DNA of 57,911 bases, taken from Bifidobacterium breve. GTDB lineage: Bacteria; Actinomycetota; Acidimicrobiia; Acidimicrobiales; Acidimicrobilacustridaceae. The translations under genes and the position numbers were made by a program. Location: assembly GCA_945862505.1 (NCBI GenBank), contig CAMAYJ010000007.1:1-57911 (forward strand), given 5' to 3'. Below, one piece after another: positions 7,686 through 18,543 of the stretch. The first letter of the stretch is position 1, and the number at the start of each line of letters is the position of its first letter. The notes beneath the pieces are model-generated. The model was given only the letters and a program-made list of their open reading frames with translations, made no database searches and was not told the DNA's origin.

Positions 7686-8444
7686 ATGCACCGTTCCCGC
7701 TCCTCTCGCCTCGTCCGAGTCGTCTTATTCGTTGCCGCTTCGGCTGTGACGCTTGTGACGCTTTCGACGGCAAGCAGCGCCCACGCCGGCTTCAAGGCAT
7801 ACTCCGCCTTCGGCTTCGCTCCGAATCTGGCCGGAGGATCGAACGCTGCCTCGGGCGATCAAGCGACACCGCCTTACGCGGCCGGAGCGACCGTGACGAT
7901 GTACATGCGCTCGGCGGTTGAGATCCCGGATGGTGAGAGCTGGGACCCAGCGCTCTACAGCAACGTGGATATGAAGATCATCGTGCCATCAGGTTGGACC
8001 AATCCGACTTGTGGCAGCGCCAATCTTCAGGTGAACGACGGCAGCACCAACAGCACCAACCAGCCGGGGGCGGCTGTCGCTGGGTGGCAGTGCGAGACCT
8101 ACGTCAGTGCCGGCCACACGGTGATCCACTTCTGGGGGCCTCCGGTTGCATCGGGAGGTCTCGCGTCCGACGCTGCCCAGTACTTTGTATTCTCCGTGAC
8201 TACCCCGTCACCAGCGGTCGAGACGACCTACGGGGTAGGTGGCACCGAGGGATTCACCGCAGATCAGCAGTACGCGAATGGTGAGATCTCGCACTGGTAC
8301 CCAAGCGTAGATTACGTCGGCACCTATCCCGCCGGTGCTGCTCCGACGACTCCGGCACGCGGACTCCTGCGAACCGTTGCCGCCGCCGAGCCGACCACGA
8401 CGACCACCCCTTCTGGCCCGGTCACCCCGGCATTCACAGGCTGA
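7686..8444 (+). CDS. secreted YcnI/DUF1775-like protein with C-terminal PAFTG tail
   Basis: A 252-residue protein with a signal peptide ending SSA before HAGFKAY, so the mature chain would start with His. YcnI-type copper proteins use an N-terminal His together with a downstream Trp. The second half of the domain is also recognisable: DMKIIVPSGWTNPTC, QYFVFSVTTPSP, and GEISHW in the place of the family GEVVRW. Extra loops make the domain longer than usual. The C-terminus is a Thr-rich linker (EPTTTTTPSG) followed by PVTPAFTG at the stop, a tail shared with three other loci in this window. The next gene begins one base after the stop. Confidence 0.7.
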   Translation: MHRSRSSRLVRVVLFVAASAVTLVTLSTASSAHAGFKAYSAFGFAPNLAGGSNAASGDQATPPYAAGATVTMYMRSAVEIPDGESWDPALYSNVDMKIIVPSGWTNPTCGSANLQVNDGSTNSTNQPGAAVAGWQCETYVSAGHTVIHFWGPPVASGGLASDAAQYFVFSVTTPSPAVETTYGVGGTEGFTADQQYANGEISHWYPSVDYVGTYPAGAAPTTPARGLLRTVAAAEPTTTTTPSGPVTPAFTG

Positions 8445-8445
8445 C

Positions 8446-9207
8446 ATGCGCATCCGATCCACTCTGGCGCGGTTTGCCGCGTGCACTGTGCTGGGGTGGA
8501 TCGCGCTCGGCGGTGTCTCCGCCGTCGCTTCTGCTCACGCGGAGTTCGAATCGACAAGCGTGACCGCAACGAGCACCACCCAGGTGGTGCTCGACGTTCC
8601 ACACGAGCGCGCACCGAACGTTTTCAACACTTCAGTGAGGATCAAGATCCCTAACGGATGGAGTGCACCGACATGCACTTCGCCCGCCGGTTGGACCTGC
8701 TCGAGTTCGTCCGGCGAGGTCGCGTTCTTCAAGAATGACCCCCGGTCCATCATCAATTCCTCAGAGGCGTTCCGATTCGCGTTGAGCGCGCCGGCATCGA
8801 CCGGCACCACGACCTTCCCTGTGGCGCAGATCTACGACACGGGTGAGAACGTCCTTTGGTCAAGTTCTGCGCAATTGCAGGTCACTCCCGCACAAACACC
8901 AACCACATCCGCCCCGCAACCTTCGCCATCGCCGACCACTCCGAATAGTCCGCCGACCACGACTGCGCAGTCGGAATCTTCGAACGCCGGGTCGGGGGCC
9001 GATGGTGGTTCGTCAGCATCGACCGCTTTGAGTCCCGACTCCTCGAACACGGTCACGCTCCAAGCTGACCAGACCGACGATTCGGCGGGCGCTCACTCCA
9101 CCTCAACCTCGGACGGTGCCCCGATCGCAGCGATCGTGGTGGCGGTAATCATCGTGATCATCGTCGGTGGAGTCGCTTTCGTTCTCGCGCGTCGTCGCGG
9201 CCGCTAG
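8446..9207 (+). CDS. membrane-anchored YcnI/DUF1775-like protein
   Basis: A 253-residue protein from the ATG right after the previous stop. The signal peptide ends ASA before HAEFESTSV, again leaving an N-terminal His. The domain shows the family pattern VVLDVPHERAPN, VRIKIPNGW, FRFALSAP, TTTFPVAQIYDTGENVLW. A 90-residue Ser/Thr/Pro-rich linker then leads to one transmembrane helix (IAAIVVAVIIVIIVGGVAFVL) and a basic tail, the usual layout of anchored actinobacterial members. Its stop shares the tetranucleotide CTAG (9204-9207) with the convergent anti-sigma gene. A role in copper capture or delivery at the cell surface follows from the family, not from direct evidence here. Confidence 0.75.
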   Translation: MRIRSTLARFAACTVLGWIALGGVSAVASAHAEFESTSVTATSTTQVVLDVPHERAPNVFNTSVRIKIPNGWSAPTCTSPAGWTCSSSSGEVAFFKNDPRSIINSSEAFRFALSAPASTGTTTFPVAQIYDTGENVLWSSSAQLQVTPAQTPTTSAPQPSPSPTTPNSPPTTTAQSESSNAGSGADGGSSASTALSPDSSNTVTLQADQTDDSAGAHSTSTSDGAPIAAIVVAVIIVIIVGGVAFVLARRRGR

Positions 9208-9809
9208 ACGGAGCGAATGGGGCCTGAGTCCCCGGACGCATCACGGAGTCCGTGGCGAGTGAGGGCCCAGACGGCGATCAGGCTGATGATCTCGGGGGTG
9301 TGTGAGAGTTCGCGCGACAACGACACTGCACCGTCGGCGACATCGATGACTGCGGTGATCACGACCGCGGCGGTCACCACGACCGAGATCGGCAGGACCG
9401 TACGCGCTCGCGCTGGACGCACAACCACGACACCGAGCGCGATGACATAGGCGAGCGAGAACGCGCCAAGGTGTCGAGCCTCGTGGCCATCGATCTCCGA
9501 GCCTCCCAGCAGATCGCCGAACGACGTAACGGCGATTACCACTGCGCATATCGCAAGCACGCCCCTTGGGAACGTCCAGGTCCACACACCATCGAGCATC
9601 CGCGCGCTTCGCACCACCGCAGGTGCCAGGTCATCCTGTGTTTCGGCTTCCCGCAGTTTGCTTCGACGCAGACCGTGGATGAACTCCCGCTGGGAGCGAC
9701 ACGATGGGCAGGTCGCGACATGGGCCTCCACTAGAGACGGATCGAGACCAGGATCCTCGCCATCGGCGAGGGCACTGATGGCCTCCTGAACCTGCGCGCA
9801 GTCAGTCAC
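9204..9809 (-). CDS. zf-HC2 anti-sigma factor with four membrane helices
   Basis: I chose the GTG at 9809, which gives 201 residues, because upstream codons overlap the sigma gene. Residues 4-37 carry the zinc-binding anti-sigma motif: Cys4, then HVATCPSC (His30, Cys34, Cys37). Four hydrophobic segments follow, at about residues 65-88, 98-120, 128-149 and 163-178. It should hold the divergent sigma factor at the membrane until a signal is sensed. The adjacency to the sigma gene and the YcnI-like genes supports a single regulatory unit. Confidence 0.8.
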   Translation of the reverse strand: MTDCAQVQEAISALADGEDPGLDPSLVEAHVATCPSCRSQREFIHGLRRSKLREAETQDDLAPAVVRSARMLDGVWTWTFPRGVLAICAVVIAVTSFGDLLGGSEIDGHEARHLGAFSLAYVIALGVVVVRPARARTVLPISVVVTAAVVITAVIDVADGAVSLSRELSHTPEIISLIAVWALTRHGLRDASGDSGPIRSV

Positions 9810-9870
9810 CGGATTCCCATCGACGTCGACTCTTGCATCGGACTCTCGCTCACTGGACCATGATAGGGAG

Positions 9871-10395
9871 ATGGAGTCGGATCCCCTACTGCACTTGTTG
9901 TTGGCGGCACGTGAGGGCAATGACGCCGCCCTCACTGAACTCGTGCGACGCACCCAGCCGACCCTTTGGGAGCTATGTCGCGCGTTGGGGCACCCGGAGG
10001 ACCCGGGCGATCTCGTGCAGGAGACCTATGAGCGGATGCTCCGGGCGATGCACACGTTCGAGGGCCGCTCACCCGTGCGCCCGTGGTTACTCACGATCGC
10101 ACGAAGGGTTTGCGCCGACTCGGTGCGACGCTCGATTCGCCGACGCCGTCTGTTCGACAAGGCAGTGAGCGCGTTCGACGCCGGCTTGGTGTCTGCAGCC
10201 GATCGCAGTTCGATGGATCTGCTGCACCATCTCGATCCCGATCGACGCGAGGCTTTTGTGATGACTCAACTCGTGGGCCTCTCATACGAAGAGGCGGCTC
10301 TCGTCCTTTCGTGCCCGATCGGAACCGTCAGATCGCGCACTTCGCGGGCCCGGGCCGACCTCAGGGCAGCGATCGCCGCCGCCGACACGGCTTGA
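9871..10395 (+). CDS. ECF-type RNA polymerase sigma factor, SigC-like
   Basis: A 174-residue protein with sigma region 2 (LWELCRALGHPEDPGDLVQETYERM, then FEGRSPVRPWLLTIARRVCADSVRR) and region 4 (LDPDRREAFVMTQLVGLSYEEAALVLSCPIGTVRSRTSRARADL), joined by a short linker. The wording of both regions is close to my memory of mycobacterial SigC, which has been linked to copper acquisition. The AGGGAG site before the ATG supports the start. It is transcribed divergently from its anti-sigma factor across 61 bases and stands next to two YcnI-like genes, so control of these genes is likely but not shown. Confidence 0.85.
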   Translation: MESDPLLHLLLAAREGNDAALTELVRRTQPTLWELCRALGHPEDPGDLVQETYERMLRAMHTFEGRSPVRPWLLTIARRVCADSVRRSIRRRRLFDKAVSAFDAGLVSAADRSSMDLLHHLDPDRREAFVMTQLVGLSYEEAALVLSCPIGTVRSRTSRARADLRAAIAAADTA

Positions 10396-10489
10396 GTTTC
10401 GCTTGGAAATGTTGACCCTGTGCTTCTATCGCTTTATTGGGTCTTCAACAGTTGGATGACATGAACCACCGATTGTGATGCTGGCCGCC

Positions 10490-10540
10490 GCGTTTCACTT
10501 TTGGCCGAAACGCGTTTCACCATCTATTTCTGTGAACGCG
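10490..10540 (+). repeat. Long direct repeat, truncated copy F
   Basis: Only the first 51 bases of the repeat remain: GCGTTTCACTTTTGGCC, the GAAACGCGTTTC palindrome and CACCATCTATTTCTGTGAACGCG. Similarity stops exactly where a fragment of the transposase-like gene begins. The 90 bases between the sigma gene and this copy contain no recognisable signal. Confidence 0.85.
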
Positions 10541-10640
10541 TCGGTGCCCGGAGCGATGGCGCGCAGCGCTCGAGTGCGTCGGCGTTCCTCAGCGATCTCG
10601 TCTTCGGTTGAGTTATGTCGGATTCGCCCGGTGGGTCGCT
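10541..10640 (-). pseudogene. Transposase-like gene fragment 3
   Basis: The minus strand reads GRIRHNSTEDEIAEERRRTR followed by ALRAIAPGTD, which matches fragment 1 (GRIRHNSTEDEITTGRRRTR, then ALRPIPPGTD) almost residue for residue. Only about 33 codons remain, bounded by truncated repeat F on one side and by the binding-protein gene on the other. Confidence 0.6.
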
Positions 10641-10663
10641 GCGCAGATCTCCGTTTTGCCGCG

Positions 10664-11866
10664 TCAGTTCGACGGTGTCAACGTGACCACGCCGCGCTCA
10701 ACGGTGGCGGTCTGCACGAACGAACCATCGGTGACGGTGAAGACGAACACGGGACCGCTCCGGATCTGGCCGTCGGCATCGAACGACAACTGCTTGGTGA
10801 TCCCTTCCACATCGGAATCGTCGAGGGCCTTCGCCATCTGGGCACGGGAACGCGCGCCGTTCACGATCGCGTCAAGCACCAGTCGAGTCGCATCGGCGTA
10901 TTCGGTGGCGTAGGCGGGAGGACTGGAGCCGGTGCGACGTTCGAAGGCGCGGCGGAAGTCGCGCGCGGCGCTGCTCGAACCGCCCCCGATGGTGCATGGA
11001 CATGTGACGATCGCGCCACGAGTGGCGTTCCCTGCGCGCGAGATGAACTCGGGCTGGAACACACCATCGCCGGCGACGAAGGATGCATTGATGCCGGCGT
11101 CGCGCAACTGTCGCACCAGTCGAGCGGCCGGATCGGTGACGCCACCGAAGTAGACAGCATCGGCGCCGAGTGATCGCACGGACTCGACGGCGGAGCGATA
11201 GTCGAGGCGGTCGGCCTCGATCTGCAGGCGCGGCGCAACGACCACGCCGCGGCTGTCGAGCGCGGTGGTGACCAGATCGGCGAGTCCCTTGCCGTACAGG
11301 CTGCCGTCATCGATGACGGCGACGGACTTCACCGCCAACTGATCGATCATGAAGGCGGCCGCTGCCGGTGCCTGTGTCGCGTCGTCGACGACGACGCGAT
11401 GGAAGAACCGCCATCCCTGCGTCCCGAGTGCCGAGTTCGTCGCCGAAGCGGTGATGACAGGAACGCCGGCGGCCTCGAGGATCGGCATGGCCGCTGCAGT
11501 CTCACCCGAGAACGCTGGTCCGACGACCGCGATGATCTGCGGGTCCTCGGCGATCGCTTGGGCGAGCGCCGCAGCACGCGTCGGATCAGCGCGGGTGTCG
11601 AACGAGACGAGACCCACGGGACACTTGGCGAGAGGCCCCGACTCCGACGCCACCGAAAGTGCCGTCTCGATCGCGCTGCGCTTCGACCGACCGTTCGCGC
11701 CGTCACTGCCGGTGATCGGGCCCATGAACGCGATCGCGCTCTGCGGACAACTGCTCGATGCATCGCTGCTGCCACAGGCCGGCGCCAGCAGCGCGACGAC
11801 ACCCGCGATCGCGACTGCTGCGAGCGACGATCGGACACGACGAGAGCGCGAACGTGATCGGTTCAT
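10664..11866 (-). CDS. lipoprotein of the branched-chain amino-acid binding protein fold (Peripla_BP_6)
   Basis: A 400-residue protein with a lipobox (VVALLAPAC, Cys at about 31). Typical type-I periplasmic binding blocks follow: SAIAFMGPITGSDGANG, VVGPAFSGETAAAMPILEAAGVPVIT, FFHRVVVDDATQAPAAAAF, AVIDDGSLYGKGLADL and VYFGGVTDPAARLVRQL. No ABC permease or ATPase gene is nearby. Instead its ATG overlaps by 4 nt the stop of a Cache-HAMP membrane protein, so it more likely serves as a ligand-sensing partner than as a transport component (inference). Confidence 0.85.
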   Translation of the reverse strand: MNRSRSRSRRVRSSLAAVAIAGVVALLAPACGSSDASSSCPQSAIAFMGPITGSDGANGRSKRSAIETALSVASESGPLAKCPVGLVSFDTRADPTRAAALAQAIAEDPQIIAVVGPAFSGETAAAMPILEAAGVPVITASATNSALGTQGWRFFHRVVVDDATQAPAAAAFMIDQLAVKSVAVIDDGSLYGKGLADLVTTALDSRGVVVAPRLQIEADRLDYRSAVESVRSLGADAVYFGGVTDPAARLVRQLRDAGINASFVAGDGVFQPEFISRAGNATRGAIVTCPCTIGGGSSSAARDFRRAFERRTGSSPPAYATEYADATRLVLDAIVNGARSRAQMAKALDDSDVEGITKQLSFDADGQIRSGPVFVFTVTDGSFVQTATVERGVVTLTPSN

Positions 11867-13143
11867 CCGTTGCCCTTCGCCCGGCGGCGCATCTCGGCCG
11901 CACGACCTTCGAGGTCTCGGAAGAAGTCGCTGTCGGTGACCTCCTCGACCTCCTTGCGACGACGCTCCTGATCGACCTCGACCTTCAACGACCGAACCTG
12001 CTCCTTCAACCTCCGTTCACGCACTGCGACCTGTTCGGCCATTCGTGCGAACACCCGTGCCAGGCGACCGATGTCGTCGTGTGACCTCCCGATCCGCTGC
12101 AACTCGTCGTCGTCGGGTGGAGCACCGTCCTCGACCGCTCGGGCGGCGCGTGTGAGCGCGCCGATCGGTCGCGACAAGCGACTGGCAACGAGGAGGGCTC
12201 CGATCACTGCGAGGATGCCGACGACGAGCAGAGCGATGGTGATGGTGTTCACGAGTCGATCGATCGGAGCCATGAACGCCCGACGGGGTTGCGTGACGAT
12301 CGCAGTCGCTGCGCCTTCGGTGGTCGCCCACGCTGCGACCTGATCACCGCGACCGGAGAGCGCGGTCCGAGCGACGCTTCCCTTCGGCTCCGACGAGATA
12401 TCGGTGGCCACTGTCGTCATTCCCAATTCATCGAGCGTGCGTCCCTGCAGGCGACCATCGCGTGCTGTGATGACGGTGCCAGCGTCGTCGACGAGGATCG
12501 CTTGGCCGCCCGGACCGAGCGGGGCCTGATTGAGGGCGAACAGGAGGTCGTCACCGCTCACCTGCAGCGCCGCGACTCCGACGACTGCGGCACCGGGTCG
12601 ACGAGCGGGAGCGGCGACCGTGACGAATGATCGACCACCAGTGGCGGTGAGCTCGCCGATCGCCGGCTTGCCGGCAACGGCCTGCACGAACCACGGTTCG
12701 GTTGTCACCGACGTACCCAGCTGGTCGGTCGGTCCGGCGACGATGGTTCCCTTCGAGTCGGCGACGAGCGTCGCGACGACATCGGGGGCGCCGCCGAGGG
12801 AAGGTGCGCTTCCACCATCGGCCAGGAACTCGACGACTGTGGGGTTGGTGCCCAACTGATCGGCACGCGCGGCGACACCGTTGAGGTACTCGTCGACTGC
12901 AGCAGCGCCCACGGTCGCTGCACCCTCGGCGGCGCCGAGCTCCGATGCCACCACTGCTTCTTGGCCAGTGCGCGTCGCCATGACGGAGACCAGCGCCATC
13001 GGCACGAGTGTGGCGAGCACGAGCGTGACGCCGAGTCTCGCTCCGAGGCTCCACCGTCGAGGATCGATGACTCGTCGGAGTGGGGAGCTGCGCGACGCTC
13101 CGACGAGCGGAGCCGTCTCGTCTAGAGGGGGAGCAGTGGTCAC
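11863..13143 (-). CDS. Cache-HAMP membrane sensor without an obvious output domain
   Basis: A 426-residue protein. Transmembrane helix 1 is at about residues 33-55 (LGVTLVLATLVPMALVSVMA). An extracellular dCache-like region of about 230 residues follows, with VVATLVADSKGTIVAG, EPWFVQAVAGKPAIGE and DDAGTVITARDGRL. Helix 2 lies at about 296-318, followed by a HAMP-like segment (SRLSRPIGALTRAARAVEDG). It ends in a charged coiled coil (RERRLKEQVRSLKVEVDQER) and VTDSDFFRDLEGRA. There is no kinase, cyclase or methyl-accepting domain, so the signal must pass to another protein, plausibly the divergently encoded ATPase pair. Confidence 0.85.
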   Translation of the reverse strand: MTTAPPLDETAPLVGASRSSPLRRVIDPRRWSLGARLGVTLVLATLVPMALVSVMATRTGQEAVVASELGAAEGAATVGAAAVDEYLNGVAARADQLGTNPTVVEFLADGGSAPSLGGAPDVVATLVADSKGTIVAGPTDQLGTSVTTEPWFVQAVAGKPAIGELTATGGRSFVTVAAPARRPGAAVVGVAALQVSGDDLLFALNQAPLGPGGQAILVDDAGTVITARDGRLQGRTLDELGMTTVATDISSEPKGSVARTALSGRGDQVAAWATTEGAATAIVTQPRRAFMAPIDRLVNTITIALLVVGILAVIGALLVASRLSRPIGALTRAARAVEDGAPPDDDELQRIGRSHDDIGRLARVFARMAEQVAVRERRLKEQVRSLKVEVDQERRRKEVEEVTDSDFFRDLEGRAAEMRRRAKGNG

Positions 13144-13215
13144 GGGTCTCCGGATCGGTAGTGCTCGCTGGGGCAGTGTCCGACGACACCAGTCGAATCA
13201 TGATAGGCAGACGGG

Positions 13216-13980
13216 ATGACGACTCTTGTGTCCATCCATTCCTTCCGTGGCGGTACCGGCAAGAGCAACACCTCTGCCAACCTCGCCGCCCAGCTCGCCC
13301 GCACCGGTGCGCGGGTTGCGGTGATCGACACCGATATCCAGTCACCCGGAATCCACGTCCTCTTCGGCTTCGACGAGGACGGCCTGGGTACCACCCTCAA
13401 CGACTACCTGCATGGCGCGGCGCCGATCGAGGCCGCCGCCCACGAGGTCACGGACCAGATCGGCGCTGCGACCGACGGTGCGGCGCTGTTCCTGGTGCCA
13501 TCGAGCATCAAGGCGTCCGAGATCGCCCGCATCCTGCGCGAGGGCTACGACGTCGGTCGACTCAACGATGGATTCCGGGAACTCGGAGAGGCGCTGAACC
13601 TCGACTACCTCCTCGTCGACACGCATCCCGGTCTGAACGAGGAGACGCTCCTGTCCATCACGGTGTCGGACATCCTGATCCTCCTCATGCGTCCCGACAA
13701 GCAGGACTTCCAGGGCACTGCCGTCACCGTCGACGTGGCCCGCCGTCTCGGTGTCCCCGAACTCCTGCTGCTAGTGAACAAGGTGCCGTCGTCGATCGAT
13801 CGCGACACGCTCGCTCGCGATGTGGCCGAGGCCTACCAGTCCGAGGTCGGCGGCGTGCTCCCGCTCAGCGAGGCGGTCGTCGAGAACTCATCGGGTGCGC
13901 TGTTCAGCATCACCAACCCCGACGAGGAGTGGTCGAAGACCCTCGTGGCACTCGCGGCGCGGATCGCCGAGCGGCCGTGA
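13216..13980 (+). CDS. MinD/ParA-family ATPase
   Basis: A 254-residue SIMIBI-class NTPase. The deviant Walker A is HSFRGGTGKSNTSAN (residues 8-22); where MinD and ParA carry the signature Lys (KGGxGK), this protein has Arg11. The A' motif is VAVIDTDIQSPG (35-46), and Walker B is YLLVDTHPGL (131-140). The LLMRPDKQDFQGTAVTVDVARRL block is also typical. There is no DNA-binding ParB partner or membrane-targeting helix in view. Its stop overlaps the GTG of the next gene (GTGA), so the two are translated together. It is divergent, across 72 bases, from the Cache-HAMP/lipoprotein pair. Confidence 0.85.
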   Translation: MTTLVSIHSFRGGTGKSNTSANLAAQLARTGARVAVIDTDIQSPGIHVLFGFDEDGLGTTLNDYLHGAAPIEAAAHEVTDQIGAATDGAALFLVPSSIKASEIARILREGYDVGRLNDGFRELGEALNLDYLLVDTHPGLNEETLLSITVSDILILLMRPDKQDFQGTAVTVDVARRLGVPELLLLVNKVPSSIDRDTLARDVAEAYQSEVGGVLPLSEAVVENSSGALFSITNPDEEWSKTLVALAARIAERP

Positions 13981-14522
13981 GCGACGACGGCCTGTTCAGC
14001 CGCGACGAGATCCTCGCTGGTGGAGCGTCAGCTGGCGATGTCCGCCGCGCCCGGTCGTTGGTGTACCTGATCGAGCAGGAATCGCAGCGGGCCTCCGACC
14101 TGCAGCGGGCGGTCACCGCGTCGGCGATGTTGGCCAACCAATCCGCGTTCATGTCGTTGGAGTCGATGCTCGACCCCGAGGCCCTGCGTGGCTCGCTCCC
14201 CGGCGAATCGGACGAAGCGTTCGTCGAATCGTTCCGAGCGGCCCGACGGTCGGCGAACAGTCCGCAGCTGAAACTCATCGAACGCCACACGCGTGACTGG
14301 ATCGTGCTCGTTCCACCTCGCGTCGATCTGCGCGCTCGAACCTTCGACCTCCTCTGTCAGCGGTACGAGATCAATCGCAAGAAGTGCAGTCGGATGTGTG
14401 CGGCGTTCGGCGTGGACGATCAGGCATTCGCCGAGACGTTCGCACGCGTTGCGCAACGTCCGCTCGACGAAGCCTGTCCGACCGGTGGCGGGGGGCTGTT
14501 CTCGCGCTTCCGCAAGAGCTGA
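13977..14522 (+). CDS. unrecognised 181-residue partner of the MinD/ParA-like ATPase
   Basis: It starts at the GTG overlapping the ATPase stop codon. The protein is soluble and mostly helical: LFSRDEILAGGASAGDVRRA, then a long amphipathic region to about residue 70, then ERHTRDWIVLVPPRVDLRAR and a Cys-containing helix (LLCQRYEINRKKCSRMCAAF). It ends in a Gly/Arg tail, GGGGLFSRFRKS. I know no domain that matches. The tight coupling suggests it binds the ATPase and could link it to the Cache-HAMP coiled coil; this is inference from arrangement. Confidence 0.75.
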   Translation: MSDDGLFSRDEILAGGASAGDVRRARSLVYLIEQESQRASDLQRAVTASAMLANQSAFMSLESMLDPEALRGSLPGESDEAFVESFRAARRSANSPQLKLIERHTRDWIVLVPPRVDLRARTFDLLCQRYEINRKKCSRMCAAFGVDDQAFAETFARVAQRPLDEACPTGGGGLFSRFRKS

Positions 14523-14541
14523 ATCCACCTAAACTCCCGCC

Positions 14542-14652
14542 ATGACCTGGAATGCCGACGTGGCCGAGATCGTCGCCAACGCCATCCAAAACGCGGACAA
14601 CGCTCTGGCCCAGCCGAACCGGATCGGTTGTCCGCCACCACCGAACAAGTGA
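14542..14652 (+). CDS. possible 36-residue peptide downstream of the ATPase operon
   Basis: ATG at 14542 opens a short frame (MTWNADVAEIVANAIQNADN, ending IGCPPPPNK) 19 bases after the previous stop. The start is amphipathic-helical, and the end carries a single Cys in a Pro-rich tail. The upstream bases (AAACTCCCGCC) do not give a convincing ribosome site, so it could be chance or a gene remnant. Its position right after the two-gene operon is what makes it worth recording. Confidence 0.35.
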   Translation: MTWNADVAEIVANAIQNADNALAQPNRIGCPPPPNK

Positions 14653-14750
14653 CGGCCCCGCCGAGGTTGCAACGCTGAAAGCGACTGCCAGTCGTGTCGC
14701 TCCCGGCGAATCCCGACCCTTGCCTGTCTTCAATTCAGTAGCCTTTGAAG

Positions 14751-15818
14751 ATGCGCAAAATTTCGATCGTTGCAGTCCTCGTTGTGGCCACATTCATCGC
14801 TGGATGCAGTTCCGACTCTGACGATCGAGGGGTCTCACGAGCGGTCGTCATCATGTCTGGCGGCGGTGCGGTGAGCCCCTTCACCACCCCCACACAGGCC
14901 TGCTCCAGCGATGACGGGTTCCTCGAGGCGGGCAACACCGACACCGCTCTACGTGTGTCACTACTCGCGGCGGGCAAGCAAGTTTACACCGCACCGGCGA
15001 TGGTGCCGTGGGGTCCAGTGTCCGATCCCGATCCGACGAGTTTCGGTCCTTTCAAGGACTGCCCCGTCGTTCTTCCGGAGTCGATGACGGTGATGTCGGC
15101 CGGTGATGTCGACGCAGCCGGCGAGAAACTCGCTCGCTTTGTCAACTATCTCCACGATACGTACGGGGTCACCGACGTCGACTTCGTCGGCCACTCCAAT
15201 GGCGGCTTGTTTAGTCGCGCGGCCACGCGGATCCTTAAGCAGACGAGCGCACCGATCACCGTGCGATCCATCTCCATGCTCGGGACCCCGAATGATGGCT
15301 CCGTTCCGGGCTCCTACACCTGGGGCGAATACGAGAAGGCTGACTGTCTGGGCGTTGTGTTCTGCGAGAAGTTCAACGAGAACTGGCTCGAGTATGCGGC
15401 GCAGGACGACCTCGGACTCAACCGCGAAAACACGTTCAAGTACCTCGACGGCGAACCCGGCTGGAACAAGGCGCAGGAGGGTTACCTCGACGGCATTCCG
15501 GTCACCTTGCTGGCGGGCGCTGCCTTCACTTCCGACGGCGGCAAGCCGACGATGTGGCCCTACGACGGCATCACCTCTCGATACAGCGCGTGGGCAGAGG
15601 GTGTTTCCGATGCGGTGATTCCGTGGCGTGCGTGCTGGGCGGGGCCGCTAACTCACAGCATCTTTGTCACCGATGCCTATAACCAGTTGTCGCAAGCCAA
15701 ACCTGCATGGGACTGGCAGACGGCGCTCACCTGGAACGCCGACGCGCTCGCTCGCGTCAACCGGGCCATTGACGAGTCAGATACCGCGCTGCAGCGACCG
15801 ACTCGTCAGGGCTGCTGA
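14751..15818 (+). CDS. lipase-like alpha/beta-hydrolase lipoprotein
   Basis: A 355-residue protein from the ATG at 14751 (a TTG two codons upstream is possible). Residues 1-19 form a lipoprotein signal with lipobox FIAGC (Cys19). The nucleophile elbow GHSNGG places Ser149 as the catalytic Ser. It is followed by a lipase-like SMLGTPNDGSVPG, and the C-terminal part has GVSDAVIPW, a likely site of the acid residue, and LTHSIFV with the catalytic His. Multiple Cys suggest disulfides. It would hydrolyse esters at the outer face of the membrane; the substrate is unknown. Confidence 0.8.
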   Translation: MRKISIVAVLVVATFIAGCSSDSDDRGVSRAVVIMSGGGAVSPFTTPTQACSSDDGFLEAGNTDTALRVSLLAAGKQVYTAPAMVPWGPVSDPDPTSFGPFKDCPVVLPESMTVMSAGDVDAAGEKLARFVNYLHDTYGVTDVDFVGHSNGGLFSRAATRILKQTSAPITVRSISMLGTPNDGSVPGSYTWGEYEKADCLGVVFCEKFNENWLEYAAQDDLGLNRENTFKYLDGEPGWNKAQEGYLDGIPVTLLAGAAFTSDGGKPTMWPYDGITSRYSAWAEGVSDAVIPWRACWAGPLTHSIFVTDAYNQLSQAKPAWDWQTALTWNADALARVNRAIDESDTALQRPTRQGC

Positions 15819-16020
15819 CTTCGCGGAAGCCATCCGGTTGGGAAGTCTTGTTTGTCTTCCCTTGCATAGAACTAGGTGACGTTCAACACCGCACGGTTCG
15901 ATGGTTTGCATGAACCAAACCAGCGCGAGAGGTCCTGGCTCAGGTCTCGACCGACTCTTCAGCACAACGTGTGTCAACCAGTCGACACATGTAGCTGTTG
16001 GGCTATCTGACAATGGTCCA

Positions 16021-16797
16021 GGACAGTCGCAGGTCAAGAAGGCAGCGATTATTTATGGTGACTTTGTCGCTCTTGTTGATTTGGCAAAAAAAGCTGTCAT
16101 TGCTTACGAACAGGTTGGTTGGAATTTTCTCGACTGCGAGCAGACATACAACATTTTGGGTGAGGCAAATTGGTTGCCGTTTGTGCAGCGGTTGAAAGAC
16201 TGTGGCGCTGAAATTGTATACTTCTCAGATTCTCCGGCTCCGCACTTCGAAAATCTTCTTGATGCAGCAAAGGCTCTTGACTACAACCCACTGTGGATGC
16301 AGGAGGCCAATTTCTACGACAGCGCATTTGCAAAGTGGAACACGAACGGCAACGCCGACAACGTCTATGTGCAGATGCCGTACTACCCGTTTGAACAAGC
16401 CGACAAGGTCCCGGCAACTGCAAAATATATTGAAATTGTGCAGGCAAACGGCGGTGCAACCAGTCTCTCTGGTGCACAGGCGACTGCGGCGTTTCTGCTT
16501 TGGGCGCAAGGTGTCAAAGAGTGTGAGTCGAACCTCACGAGCGATTGTGTGATTAGCGCGCTTCAGAAGATTACGAGTTACGACGCTGGCGGCTTGCAGT
16601 CACCGACGAACCCCGGTGGCAACAAGCCCGGGGATTGTTCGATGGTTGTAAAGCTTTCGGGCACTGAGTTTGAGCAGGTGTTGCCGACCACGATCGGAAC
16701 CCAAGCATGCAATCCGAAGTATCTCGTCAGCCTCACTGGTCCAGCAGTCGATCGAGCCAAGTTGGACGGCAACCGCATCTCAAAAGCGGCGGAGTAG
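16021..16797 (+). pseudogene. 5'-truncated periplasmic binding protein (Peripla_BP_6) remnant
   Basis: From about VKKAAIIYGDF the frame encodes the second lobe of a branched-chain amino-acid-type binding protein: FVQRLKDCGAEIVYFSDSP, LLDAAKALDYNPLWMQEANF, FEQADKVPATAKYIEIV, FLLWAQGVKECESNLTSDCV. The first lobe and signal peptide, some 150-180 residues, are missing; the open frame upstream to the ATG at 15901 shows no resemblance to the family. The bases are AT-richer than the neighbours (TTATTTATGGTGACTTTGTC), which suggests a different source. A weak hairpin (GGGAAG/CTTCCC, 15840-15861) lies upstream, after the lipase. Confidence 0.65.
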
Positions 16798-16849
16798 AAC
16801 TGAGAAGTTTTTCAACGGCGGCGGGCAAACCTCGGTAATCTCCTCACTC

Positions 16850-17599
16850 ATGGACTGGATCTCTGACCCCACCGCTTGGAGTGCGCTAGCAGCGCTACTC
16901 ACACTTGAGATCGTGCTCGGTGTCGACAATGTCGTCTTCATTTCGATTCTCGCTTCCAAGCTCCCCCCTGAGGAGCAGGACAAGGCCCGAAGGATCGGGC
17001 TTCTTGCTGCAGGCGGAATGCGAGTTCTCCTGCTGTTGGCGGTGGGCTGGGTGGTCACCCTCAAGACGGAATTGTTCACGATCGGGTCGGTGGGTTTCAG
17101 TGGCAAAGAGTTGATTTTGCTCGCGGGCGGCCTCTTCCTCATTTACAAGGCGACGAAAGAGATCCACCACAAACTCGAGGGAGACGAGGGCACAACTTCA
17201 GCAAAGGTCGCTCCCACGATCGTCGCTGTCATCGGCCAGGTGCTGCTGCTCGATATCGTGTTCTCGATCGACTCGGTCATCACGGCCGTTGGTATGACGA
17301 GTTATGTCGGGGTCATGATCATCGCGATCATGACGGCTGTTTTCGTGATGCTTCTGGCCTCGAAGGCCATCTATACATTCGTGAACGCCCATCCGTCGGT
17401 CAAGATGCTGGCGCTGGCCTTCCTGCTCCTGATCGGCACGACGCTGATTGCCGAGGGATTCGGACAGAAGATTCCCAAGGGCTACATCTACGCCGCTATG
17501 ACCTTCTCCGTATTCGTCGAGGTCCTCAATATCGGCACCCGGCGCAAGAAGAAGCACGTCGAGCCGCTGCACCTTCGCGAACCGGTCGTCAACGACTAG
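16850..17599 (+). CDS. TerC/YoaE-family integral membrane protein
   Basis: A 249-residue protein starting at MDWISDPTAW, the classic TerC-family beginning. Diagnostic intramembrane motifs are LEIVLGVDNVVFIS (residues 19-32) and LLDIVFSIDSVITAVGM (about 136-152), each with the conserved Asp pair thought to bind metal. There are seven hydrophobic segments and a charged tail (TRRKKKHVEP). Family members export manganese or take part in metal-stress and membrane-protein biogenesis functions. It stands alone, 190 bases before the rhodopsin gene. Confidence 0.9.
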   Translation: MDWISDPTAWSALAALLTLEIVLGVDNVVFISILASKLPPEEQDKARRIGLLAAGGMRVLLLLAVGWVVTLKTELFTIGSVGFSGKELILLAGGLFLIYKATKEIHHKLEGDEGTTSAKVAPTIVAVIGQVLLLDIVFSIDSVITAVGMTSYVGVMIIAIMTAVFVMLLASKAIYTFVNAHPSVKMLALAFLLLIGTTLIAEGFGQKIPKGYIYAAMTFSVFVEVLNIGTRRKKKHVEPLHLREPVVND

Positions 17600-17784: not shown

Positions 17785-18543
17785 ATGGAAGAAATCATGA
17801 CAACCGGTTCCAGCCTGATGAATACGGTGACGTTGACCGGCAACGAATATTTGCTGGTCTACAACGTCTTTTCGCTTGTGGTTGCGTCAATGTTCGCCGC
17901 CTTCGTTTATTTCCTTATGAACGCTTCACAGGTTGCGAAGCAGTACCGCAACGCAGTGGTCGTCTCCGCTGTCGTCGTCGGAATCGCCGGTTACCACTAC
18001 TTCCGCATCTTCTCCGGATGGTCCGATGGCCAGTTCAACGAGGGCTACCGCTACGCCGACTGGCTTCTGACCGTACCGTTGCTGCTCATCGAACTCTTGA
18101 TCGTTCTTGGTCTGAGTTCAGAGAAGCGCCGTCCGCTCACGATCCGTTTGGTAACTGCTGCCGTCTTGATGATCGGCCTCGGTTACCCGGGCGAGATTTC
18201 GACCAGCGATAGCACGAAGTGGATCTTCTGGGCGTTGGCGATGATCCCATTCATCTACATCCTCGCCATCCTTTACAAGGAGATCACTGCTGCGACAAAG
18301 CGCGAGTCTGCCGGAGTGGCGCAGGCCCTTCGTCTTGCTCTTGGCCTCTTGCTGTTGGCTTGGTTGGTCTACCCGATTGCCTACCTCTTCCCGATCATCT
18401 TCGGTGAGGACAGTTCGATGGCCGAAACGGTACGTCAGGTTGGATACTCGGTTGCTGATCTTCTGGCCAAGCCCGTCTACGGCCTCGCCATTCTTGCGGT
18501 CGCAAAACTGCGCACCCGTGAGGAAGCTCCTTCCGCAAACTGA
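17785..18543 (+). CDS. light-driven proton-pump rhodopsin (proteorhodopsin/xanthorhodopsin-like)
   Basis: A 252-residue seven-helix protein. Helix C reads GYRYADWLLTVPLLLIELLI: Asp92, Thr96 and Glu103 match the DTE residues of outward proton pumps (acceptor, Thr, donor), and Leu100 at the tuning site predicts green absorption. His71 (GYHYF) matches the helix-B His that pairs with the acceptor. Lys229 (ADLLAKPVYG) is the retinal Schiff-base residue. An internal ATG at 17797, preceded by GGAAG, is an alternative start. No retinal-forming dioxygenase or carotenoid genes lie in the window, so retinal must come from elsewhere. By position from memory, Trp149 occupies the site that is Gly in carotenoid-antenna rhodopsins. 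Confidence 0.93.
   Translation: MEEIMTTGSSLMNTVTLTGNEYLLVYNVFSLVVASMFAAFVYFLMNASQVAKQYRNAVVVSAVVVGIAGYHYFRIFSGWSDGQFNEGYRYADWLLTVPLLLIELLIVLGLSSEKRRPLTIRLVTAAVLMIGLGYPGEISTSDSTKWIFWALAMIPFIYILAILYKEITAATKRESAGVAQALRLALGLLLLAWLVYPIAYLFPIIFGEDSSMAETVRQVGYSVADLLAKPVYGLAILAVAKLRTREEAPSAN

Follow-up and report, generated by a model that had tools for sequence, protein, structure and literature searches.

A Cache-HAMP sensor with a conserved C-terminal tail and a divergent ParA/MinD-type ATPase: a candidate signalling module from Acidimicrobiia

Membrane sensors that end at a HAMP domain with no recognisable output usually stay unexplained. A published survey of Cache proteins lists known output domains for practically every family (PMC4822843). 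Such a sensor is encoded in the window, by which is meant the whole 57,911-nucleotide stretch of contig CAMAYJ010000007.1 analysed here, and the question is where its signal goes. The sensor gene is part of a cassette with genes for a binding lipoprotein, a MinD/ParA-superfamily ATPase and a 181-residue partner protein. The four genes are read here as a sensor-to-ATPase signalling module, in which a tail at the C-terminus of the sensor would dock on and control the ATPase, which would act on a variable effector; we put the probability of this reading at about 55%. Gene linkage, family identities, co-occurrence of tail and ATPase, and sharing of domains are observed directly in the genomes.

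The four-gene cassette

The assembly carrying the window is 2.3 Mb in size and 99.55% complete, and its named relatives are metagenome-assembled genomes (MAGs) of Acidimicrobiia/Acidimicrobiales. The cassette consists of two gene pairs, each with a 4-nt overlap, that diverge across a 72-base intergenic region (13144-13215), an arrangement described in the original prediction and borne out by the gene calls. On the minus strand lie the lipoprotein gene (10664-11866) and the Cache-HAMP gene (11863-13143), and on the plus strand the ATPase gene (13216-13980) and the partner gene (13977-14522). The same divergent layout occurs in three sister genomes (L003/L010, L011 and L012), and in genome G013 the cassette is split across two contigs, one with the ATPase and partner genes (L002) and the other with the Cache-HAMP and lipoprotein genes (L046). 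Since all four genes recur in other genomes, the linkage is more than chance, and the proposal that they form a coherent unit holds. Failure of the four to co-occur in other genomes had been named beforehand as a refutation, and this outcome was not observed.

The conserved tail

The only domain matches of the Cache-HAMP protein are dCache_1 (5.7e-12) and HAMP (8.7e-7); no HisKA/HATPase or methyl-accepting chemotaxis protein (MCP) signalling domain follows the HAMP. It had been described as lacking any output domain and ending in a coiled coil. No database output domain is indeed present, but a conserved, unannotated tail is, and the protein thus looks as if it does possess an output element, a coiled coil whose last helix is capped by an invariant D-F-F. 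The element spans 68 codons (residues 356-423; 11875-12078, minus strand) and is supported by an alignment (A3), by whole-genome and plasmid matches, and by an AlphaFold2 model (mean predicted local distance difference test score, pLDDT, 81 for the whole protein). It runs from the end of the HAMP through a coiled coil and a kink to a terminal helix starting at the invariant DFF (406-408), with a consensus of about LKVEIDxxRRxxxVAEITxSDFFxxLxxKA in A3, and no Pfam domain covers it. The model predicts a single long helix (357-403), a kink, and a helix from the DFF onward (406-424), with pLDDT values of 58-81 in this region.

The C-terminus is the conserved part of these proteins. The aligned relatives are only 20-28% identical and have very different sensor regions, and 10 of the 14 invariant columns in an alignment of 11 Cache/HAMP proteins fall at residues 375-419 (R375, E376, L379, V383, R395, V399, D406, F407, F408 and R419). 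The same tail also terminates REC proteins (L036-L038, L041), a HisKA-REC protein (L034), and GAF (L023), PAS (L043), CHASE2 (L050) and coil-only (L025) proteins. It is proposed, from these sequence patterns, to be a docking or activating element for the ATPase. One tail-bearing sensor, in Nostoc (L021), carries what appears by eye to be a Nif11-like leader sequence at its N-terminus.

Co-occurrence of tail and ATPase

Tail and ATPase are found in nearly the same genomes. The order sample has the tail in 6 of 397 genomes and the ATPase in exactly those six. Across the phylum sample (396 genomes), nine have the tail, nine the ATPase and eight both (P about 6e-15, a nominal hypergeometric value that, like the one below, ignores the relatedness of genomes). 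At the family level the ATPase is present in 9/37 genomes; all nine of these have the tail, and none of four ATPase-negative genomes does. The cyanobacterial side of the distribution is based on plasmid records: an actinobacterial tail query matched 7 of 72,556, all from Nostoc, Pseudanabaena, Kovacikia or Deinococcus, and six of the seven also hold the ATPase at 50% identity or more (nominal P about 1e-24). The two genes are near neighbours in most loci. The complete genome G114 has four tail proteins and one ATPase match, which fits the expectation of a shared receiver.

That the P values ignore relatedness weighs against the proposed module, as do several other points. Alignment A3 was made partly from neighbours of the ATPase, so some tail positives arise by construction and count only in part as independent evidence. 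How A3 was built has no bearing on the genomes in which no tail occurs, on the plasmid test, or on the G114 and G276 results. The tail occurs without the ATPase in a 93%-complete MAG (G276), and plasmid record NZ_AP017564 has a tail yet is absent among the close ATPase relatives. No tail was seen at the SpoIIE-type ATPase loci L027 and L039. The partner is missing at several loci that have both ATPase and tail (L021, L022, L028-L031) and is therefore not obligatory.

The RGGTGK-type ATPase

The window ATPase has a MinD/ParA-type P-loop and scores above the gathering thresholds of AAA_31 (9e-16), ParA (3.5e-15) and CbiA. All 26 ATPases bearing its motif read HS[FYH]RGGTGKS[NS], with arginine in place of the ParA/MinD signature lysine in every one and with the catalytic lysine and Walker A' retained. 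K16, D38, D40 and D135 are invariant across 14 aligned sequences, and D38-T39-D40 is conserved. Deviations at the signature lysine are also found in BcsQ (RGGVGTT) and McdA (SGGQGKT) (PMC9178275). In the tree, long branches set the RGGTGK-type ATPases apart from the ParA/Mrp proteins of the window genome itself, whose canonical ParA-type proteins are encoded elsewhere, and the Acidimicrobiia ATPases form a clade with support 0.997. Members of the family occur in Actinomycetota, Cyanobacteriota, Deinococcota and Rhizobium.

Among PDB entries an archaeal MinD (1hyq, 4e-23) is closest in sequence; against the MinD models the protein falls far under the cut-offs (44.7 versus 212.9 bits for TIGR01968 and 83.3 versus 201.75 for TIGR01969). 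Neither ParB nor parS was found beside the gene, the partner has no similarity to ParB, and the statement that the ATPase has no ParB or MinE partner was correct. We class it within the ParA/MinD superfamily, as a divergent protein that is neither MinD nor ParA. A second, degenerate paralogue (HSFMRGTGKS) adjoins a tail sensor in Deinococcus (L022, 17389-18156) and is possibly a pseudo-ATPase.

The intact fold, with its catalytic lysine and Walker A', also fits a positioning system, in which the ATPase would spread or polarise the sensor, alone or in an array with the partner, over the membrane or nucleoid in the manner of PpfA-TlpT and ParC-ParP, with the tail or partner as an adaptor that stimulates hydrolysis. 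A sensor without a classical output enzyme would suit such a role, and chemoreceptors provide precedents: the receptor TlpT uses its N-terminus to bind the ParA-like PpfA (PMC5706961, PMC10924463), which it probably stimulates (PMC5706961). The ATPase, however, is not tied to one cargo but linked to varied regulators and exporters, soluble REC, GAF and PAS proteins bear the identical type of tail, and the alignment of the ATPases has no evident C-terminal membrane-targeting extension. The original prediction was of a ligand-controlled ATPase switch that positions something at the membrane. A switch is still the best reading; its positioning half is unsupported, since no ParB/MinE-like protein and no sign of positioning were found and the effectors differ among genomes. 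We regard positioning as possible, though unlikely.

The partner protein and variable effectors

The partner belongs, as had been stated, to no known family: Pfam, NCBIfam, PADLOC and PHROG contain nothing that matches it, and its fold matches nothing in the PDB or in a viral library at E<=0.001. Weak sequence matches to protein A and mitofusin were set aside as chance similarity between helical sequences. The AlphaFold2 model, from an alignment from which one row, a plasmid record, was excluded, is all-helical, with helices 17-56 and 96-166 mostly confident. The partner is a new all-helical domain family. D4 and R9 of its N-terminal motif (DDGLFSRDEILAG) are invariant, yet this segment has low model confidence and is predicted to be disordered. 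By analogy, a conserved disordered N-terminus may be like a docking motif; ParB stimulates ParA by acting on it via an N-terminal arginine finger (PMC9178275).

Stand-alone relatives of the partner occur at seven loci (the window, L002, L003, L011, L012, L013 and L032). Elsewhere the domain forms the N-terminal ~150 residues of proteins with multiple membrane spans encoded next to the ATPase (L020, L034, L036, L037, L038), and L035 has one copy as a separate open reading frame (ORF) and another fused. The fused protein of L036 matches the Trp/Tyr permease (6e-11) and Aa_trans (2e-7) families. Since permease-like proteins in other genomes carry the partner as their cytosolic domain, the output of the stand-alone form is most likely the gating or recruitment of a membrane protein.

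The relatives are widely distributed, and their contexts (permease, HATPase-GNAT, NHLP export and icfG-type partner switch) go beyond what was originally noted. ATPase and tail sensors lie within NHLP/Nif11 clusters for ribosomally synthesized and post-translationally modified peptides (RiPPs) in an Acidimicrobiia relative (G004, locus L013) and in Nostoc (L020, L021), and the NHLP cluster of Pseudanabaena (L023) has the ATPase with the GAF-tail protein. The L013 cluster (8068-15261) encodes five Nif11-like leader peptides (of the LTEDQLASIAGG type), a HlyD-like protein, an NHLM exporter and a fusion protein with TfuA-like and methyltransferase-like parts; the leaders and the fusion protein were named by eye. 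The NHLM exporter model TIGR03796 is above cut-off in one of 11 genomes, G004, and a RiPP cluster was rejected as the explanation of the window cassette because the window genome has no such exporter above cut-off. The two founding NHLP/Nif11 papers searched make no mention of an association with the ATPase or tail. In the NHLP clusters of cyanobacteria a DUF7005 protein (L020, 15863-17065, 1.1e-174; L021, 15810-17015; L023, 11916-13139) always has a double cyclic-nucleotide-binding protein as its neighbour.

The ATPase also lies in or beside icfG-like operons (AGE epimerase, STAS, GlgX, STAS, HATPase and SpoIIE) in Streptomyces (L027), Deinococcus (L022), Nostoc (L024/L050) and genome G440 (L039). 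In Synechocystis the icfG operon is known to act as a partner switch in carbon signalling (PMC12329169). This precedent suggests that the ATPase might govern a circuit of SpoIIAB-like kinase, STAS and SpoIIE proteins, and hence a sigma factor; the window cassette would then be a pared-down form whose targets are switch proteins encoded elsewhere. Consistent with it, eight of the 11 ATPase-positive genomes have a HATPase-GNAT protein and none of the four ATPase-negative genomes does. That protein is, however, absent from the 99.55%-complete window genome, and so was rejected as an obligatory output; no STAS, HATPase kinase or SpoIIE phosphatase gene flanks the cassette; and the extracytoplasmic function (ECF) sigma gene next to it (9871-10392) was seen beside it in the window genome only. 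A partner-switch regulator is thus improbable, and slightly more so than positioning.

Among further contexts, the ATPase locus of Rhizobium (L025) adjoins genes that appear by eye to encode an injection system, and on a plasmid of Pseudanabaena ABRG5-3 a Cache-tail protein (L049, 10825-12201) directly follows a contractile injection system (VgrG, PAAR, gp25 and baseplate); this locus has the tail only, with nif-associated genes nearby. A related MFS/nucleotide-transporter-like protein, named by resemblance only, occurs at L013, L022, L032 and L033. A defence system was rejected, PADLOC giving only weak P-loop matches.

The lipoprotein

The lipoprotein has a Peripla_BP_6/ANF-receptor fold (2e-42) of the branched-chain amino acid type, and it is presumed to present a ligand to the sensor; the type of fold is only a hint as to the ligand. 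Its 4-nt coupling to the Cache-HAMP gene is kept in L003, L011 (11128-12438/12435-13601), L012, L033 and L046. As had been remarked, the transport-type fold comes with no transporter genes: the permease and ATPase genes of a branched-chain amino acid ABC transporter do not adjoin it in the window cassette, and no ABC permease or ATPase gene lies directly beside it in L003, L011, L012 or L046. The fold and the missing permease genes would also suit a lipoprotein that merely serves an unlinked branched-chain amino acid transporter, with the Cache-HAMP protein and ATPase as unrelated neighbours, but the retained coupling to the sensor gene makes this very improbable.

Proposed mechanism

The lipoprotein and/or the dCache domain would bind an extracellular ligand, and the signal would travel via the HAMP into the coiled-coil tail with its D-F-F-capped terminal helix. 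The tail would dock on the RGGTGK-type ATPase and set its nucleotide state, either an ATP-bound dimer or an ADP-bound monomer. The binding of TlpT to PpfA and the action of the ParB arginine finger on ParA are precedents for such control. Because tail and ATPase co-occur almost exactly, the ATPase could be the common receiver of every tail-bearing sensor. One of its states would bind the effector, which here would be the helical partner and in other genomes the partner domain of a permease-like protein, or a different linked effector, HATPase-GNAT for example. The tail is about 1:1 with the ATPase while the partner, HATPase-GNAT and exporters vary; we therefore infer the simplest wiring, from tail to ATPase to variable effector. 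The direction of signalling, the physical contacts and the nucleotide dependence in this scheme are drawn from genomics.

The proposed module spans several phyla, and none of the databases and open-access papers covered by the search describes it, subscription papers lying outside the search. It is best placed with the ParA/MinD ATPase systems, and would be a distinct signalling class if the tail is the direct input of the ATPase. More tentatively, and at somewhat less than even odds, Cache, PAS, GAF, CHASE2 and REC sensors may all drive a dedicated MinD/ParA-type ATPase through one C-terminal tail, with interchangeable effectors (helical partner, permease-like protein, HATPase-GNAT, peptide export), much as chemoreceptors share CheA. 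If the tail is indeed the missing output of the sensor, genes whose annotation as "HAMP domain" or "MinD/ParA family" says little would gain a function, ParA/MinD ATPases would have a role in signalling as well as in positioning, and there would be a clue to the way in which signals reach some peptide-export and carbon partner-switch clusters.

Neighbouring genes

A doubtful 36-codon ORF (14542-14652, plus strand; MTWNADVAEIVANAIQNADNALAQPNRIGCPPPPNK) lies 3' of the partner gene, with TAAACT 6 bases 5' of its ATG, a feature shared with leaderless actinobacterial genes. The ORF has no counterpart in the locus of the closest relative (L002) and is therefore excluded from the system; the range originally given, to 14652, covers it. 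Being unconserved, it was also set aside as a precursor peptide. In the sister genus an extra conserved gene lies between the cassette halves on the Cache strand (L003, 6117-7259, minus strand; also L011 and L012). It is 57-83% identical among these loci and acetolactate decarboxylase-like by eye.

Just past the lipoprotein gene, at 9207-10392, sit the ECF sigma factor gene, on the plus strand, and on the opposite strand a zf-HC2 anti-sigma-like gene (9207-9953) that overlaps its start. On the other side of the cassette are a second Peripla_BP_6 ORF (15901-16794, plus) that starts only at profile position 132, as though its 5' part had been lost, and a microbial rhodopsin gene (17785-18540, plus; Bac_rhodopsin, 5.6e-42) adjoining a gene for a TerC-family membrane protein (16718-17596).

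Comparison with known systems

In G004, Nostoc and Pseudanabaena the ATPase and tail are found inside NHLP/Nif11 RiPP export clusters, unlike in the window genome. A related ATPase is found in icfG-like operons of Streptomyces, Deinococcus and Nostoc, resembling the icfG operon of Synechocystis (slr1856-slr1861), whereas no such genes flank the window cassette. With MinD/MinE, ParA/ParB, FlhG/FleN and MipZ the window ATPase has in common the P-loop fold, Walker A' and B and the catalytic lysine; it differs in its arginine signature, its own clade and the lack of MinE or ParB.

The PpfA-TlpT system of the Rhodobacter cytoplasmic chemoreceptor cluster and ParC-ParP of Vibrio resemble the proposed module in that a ParA/MinD-type ATPase works with a receptor or its adaptor, a pairing seen in the window system as gene linkage and co-occurrence. 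In contrast to both, the window system has no MCP signalling domain, CheA or CheW. PpfA reads KGGVGKT (Table 1 of PMC9178275), whereas the window ATPase has arginine for the signature lysine. Its tail, moreover, is C-terminal and common to many types of sensor, and its effector domain is found on permease-like proteins.

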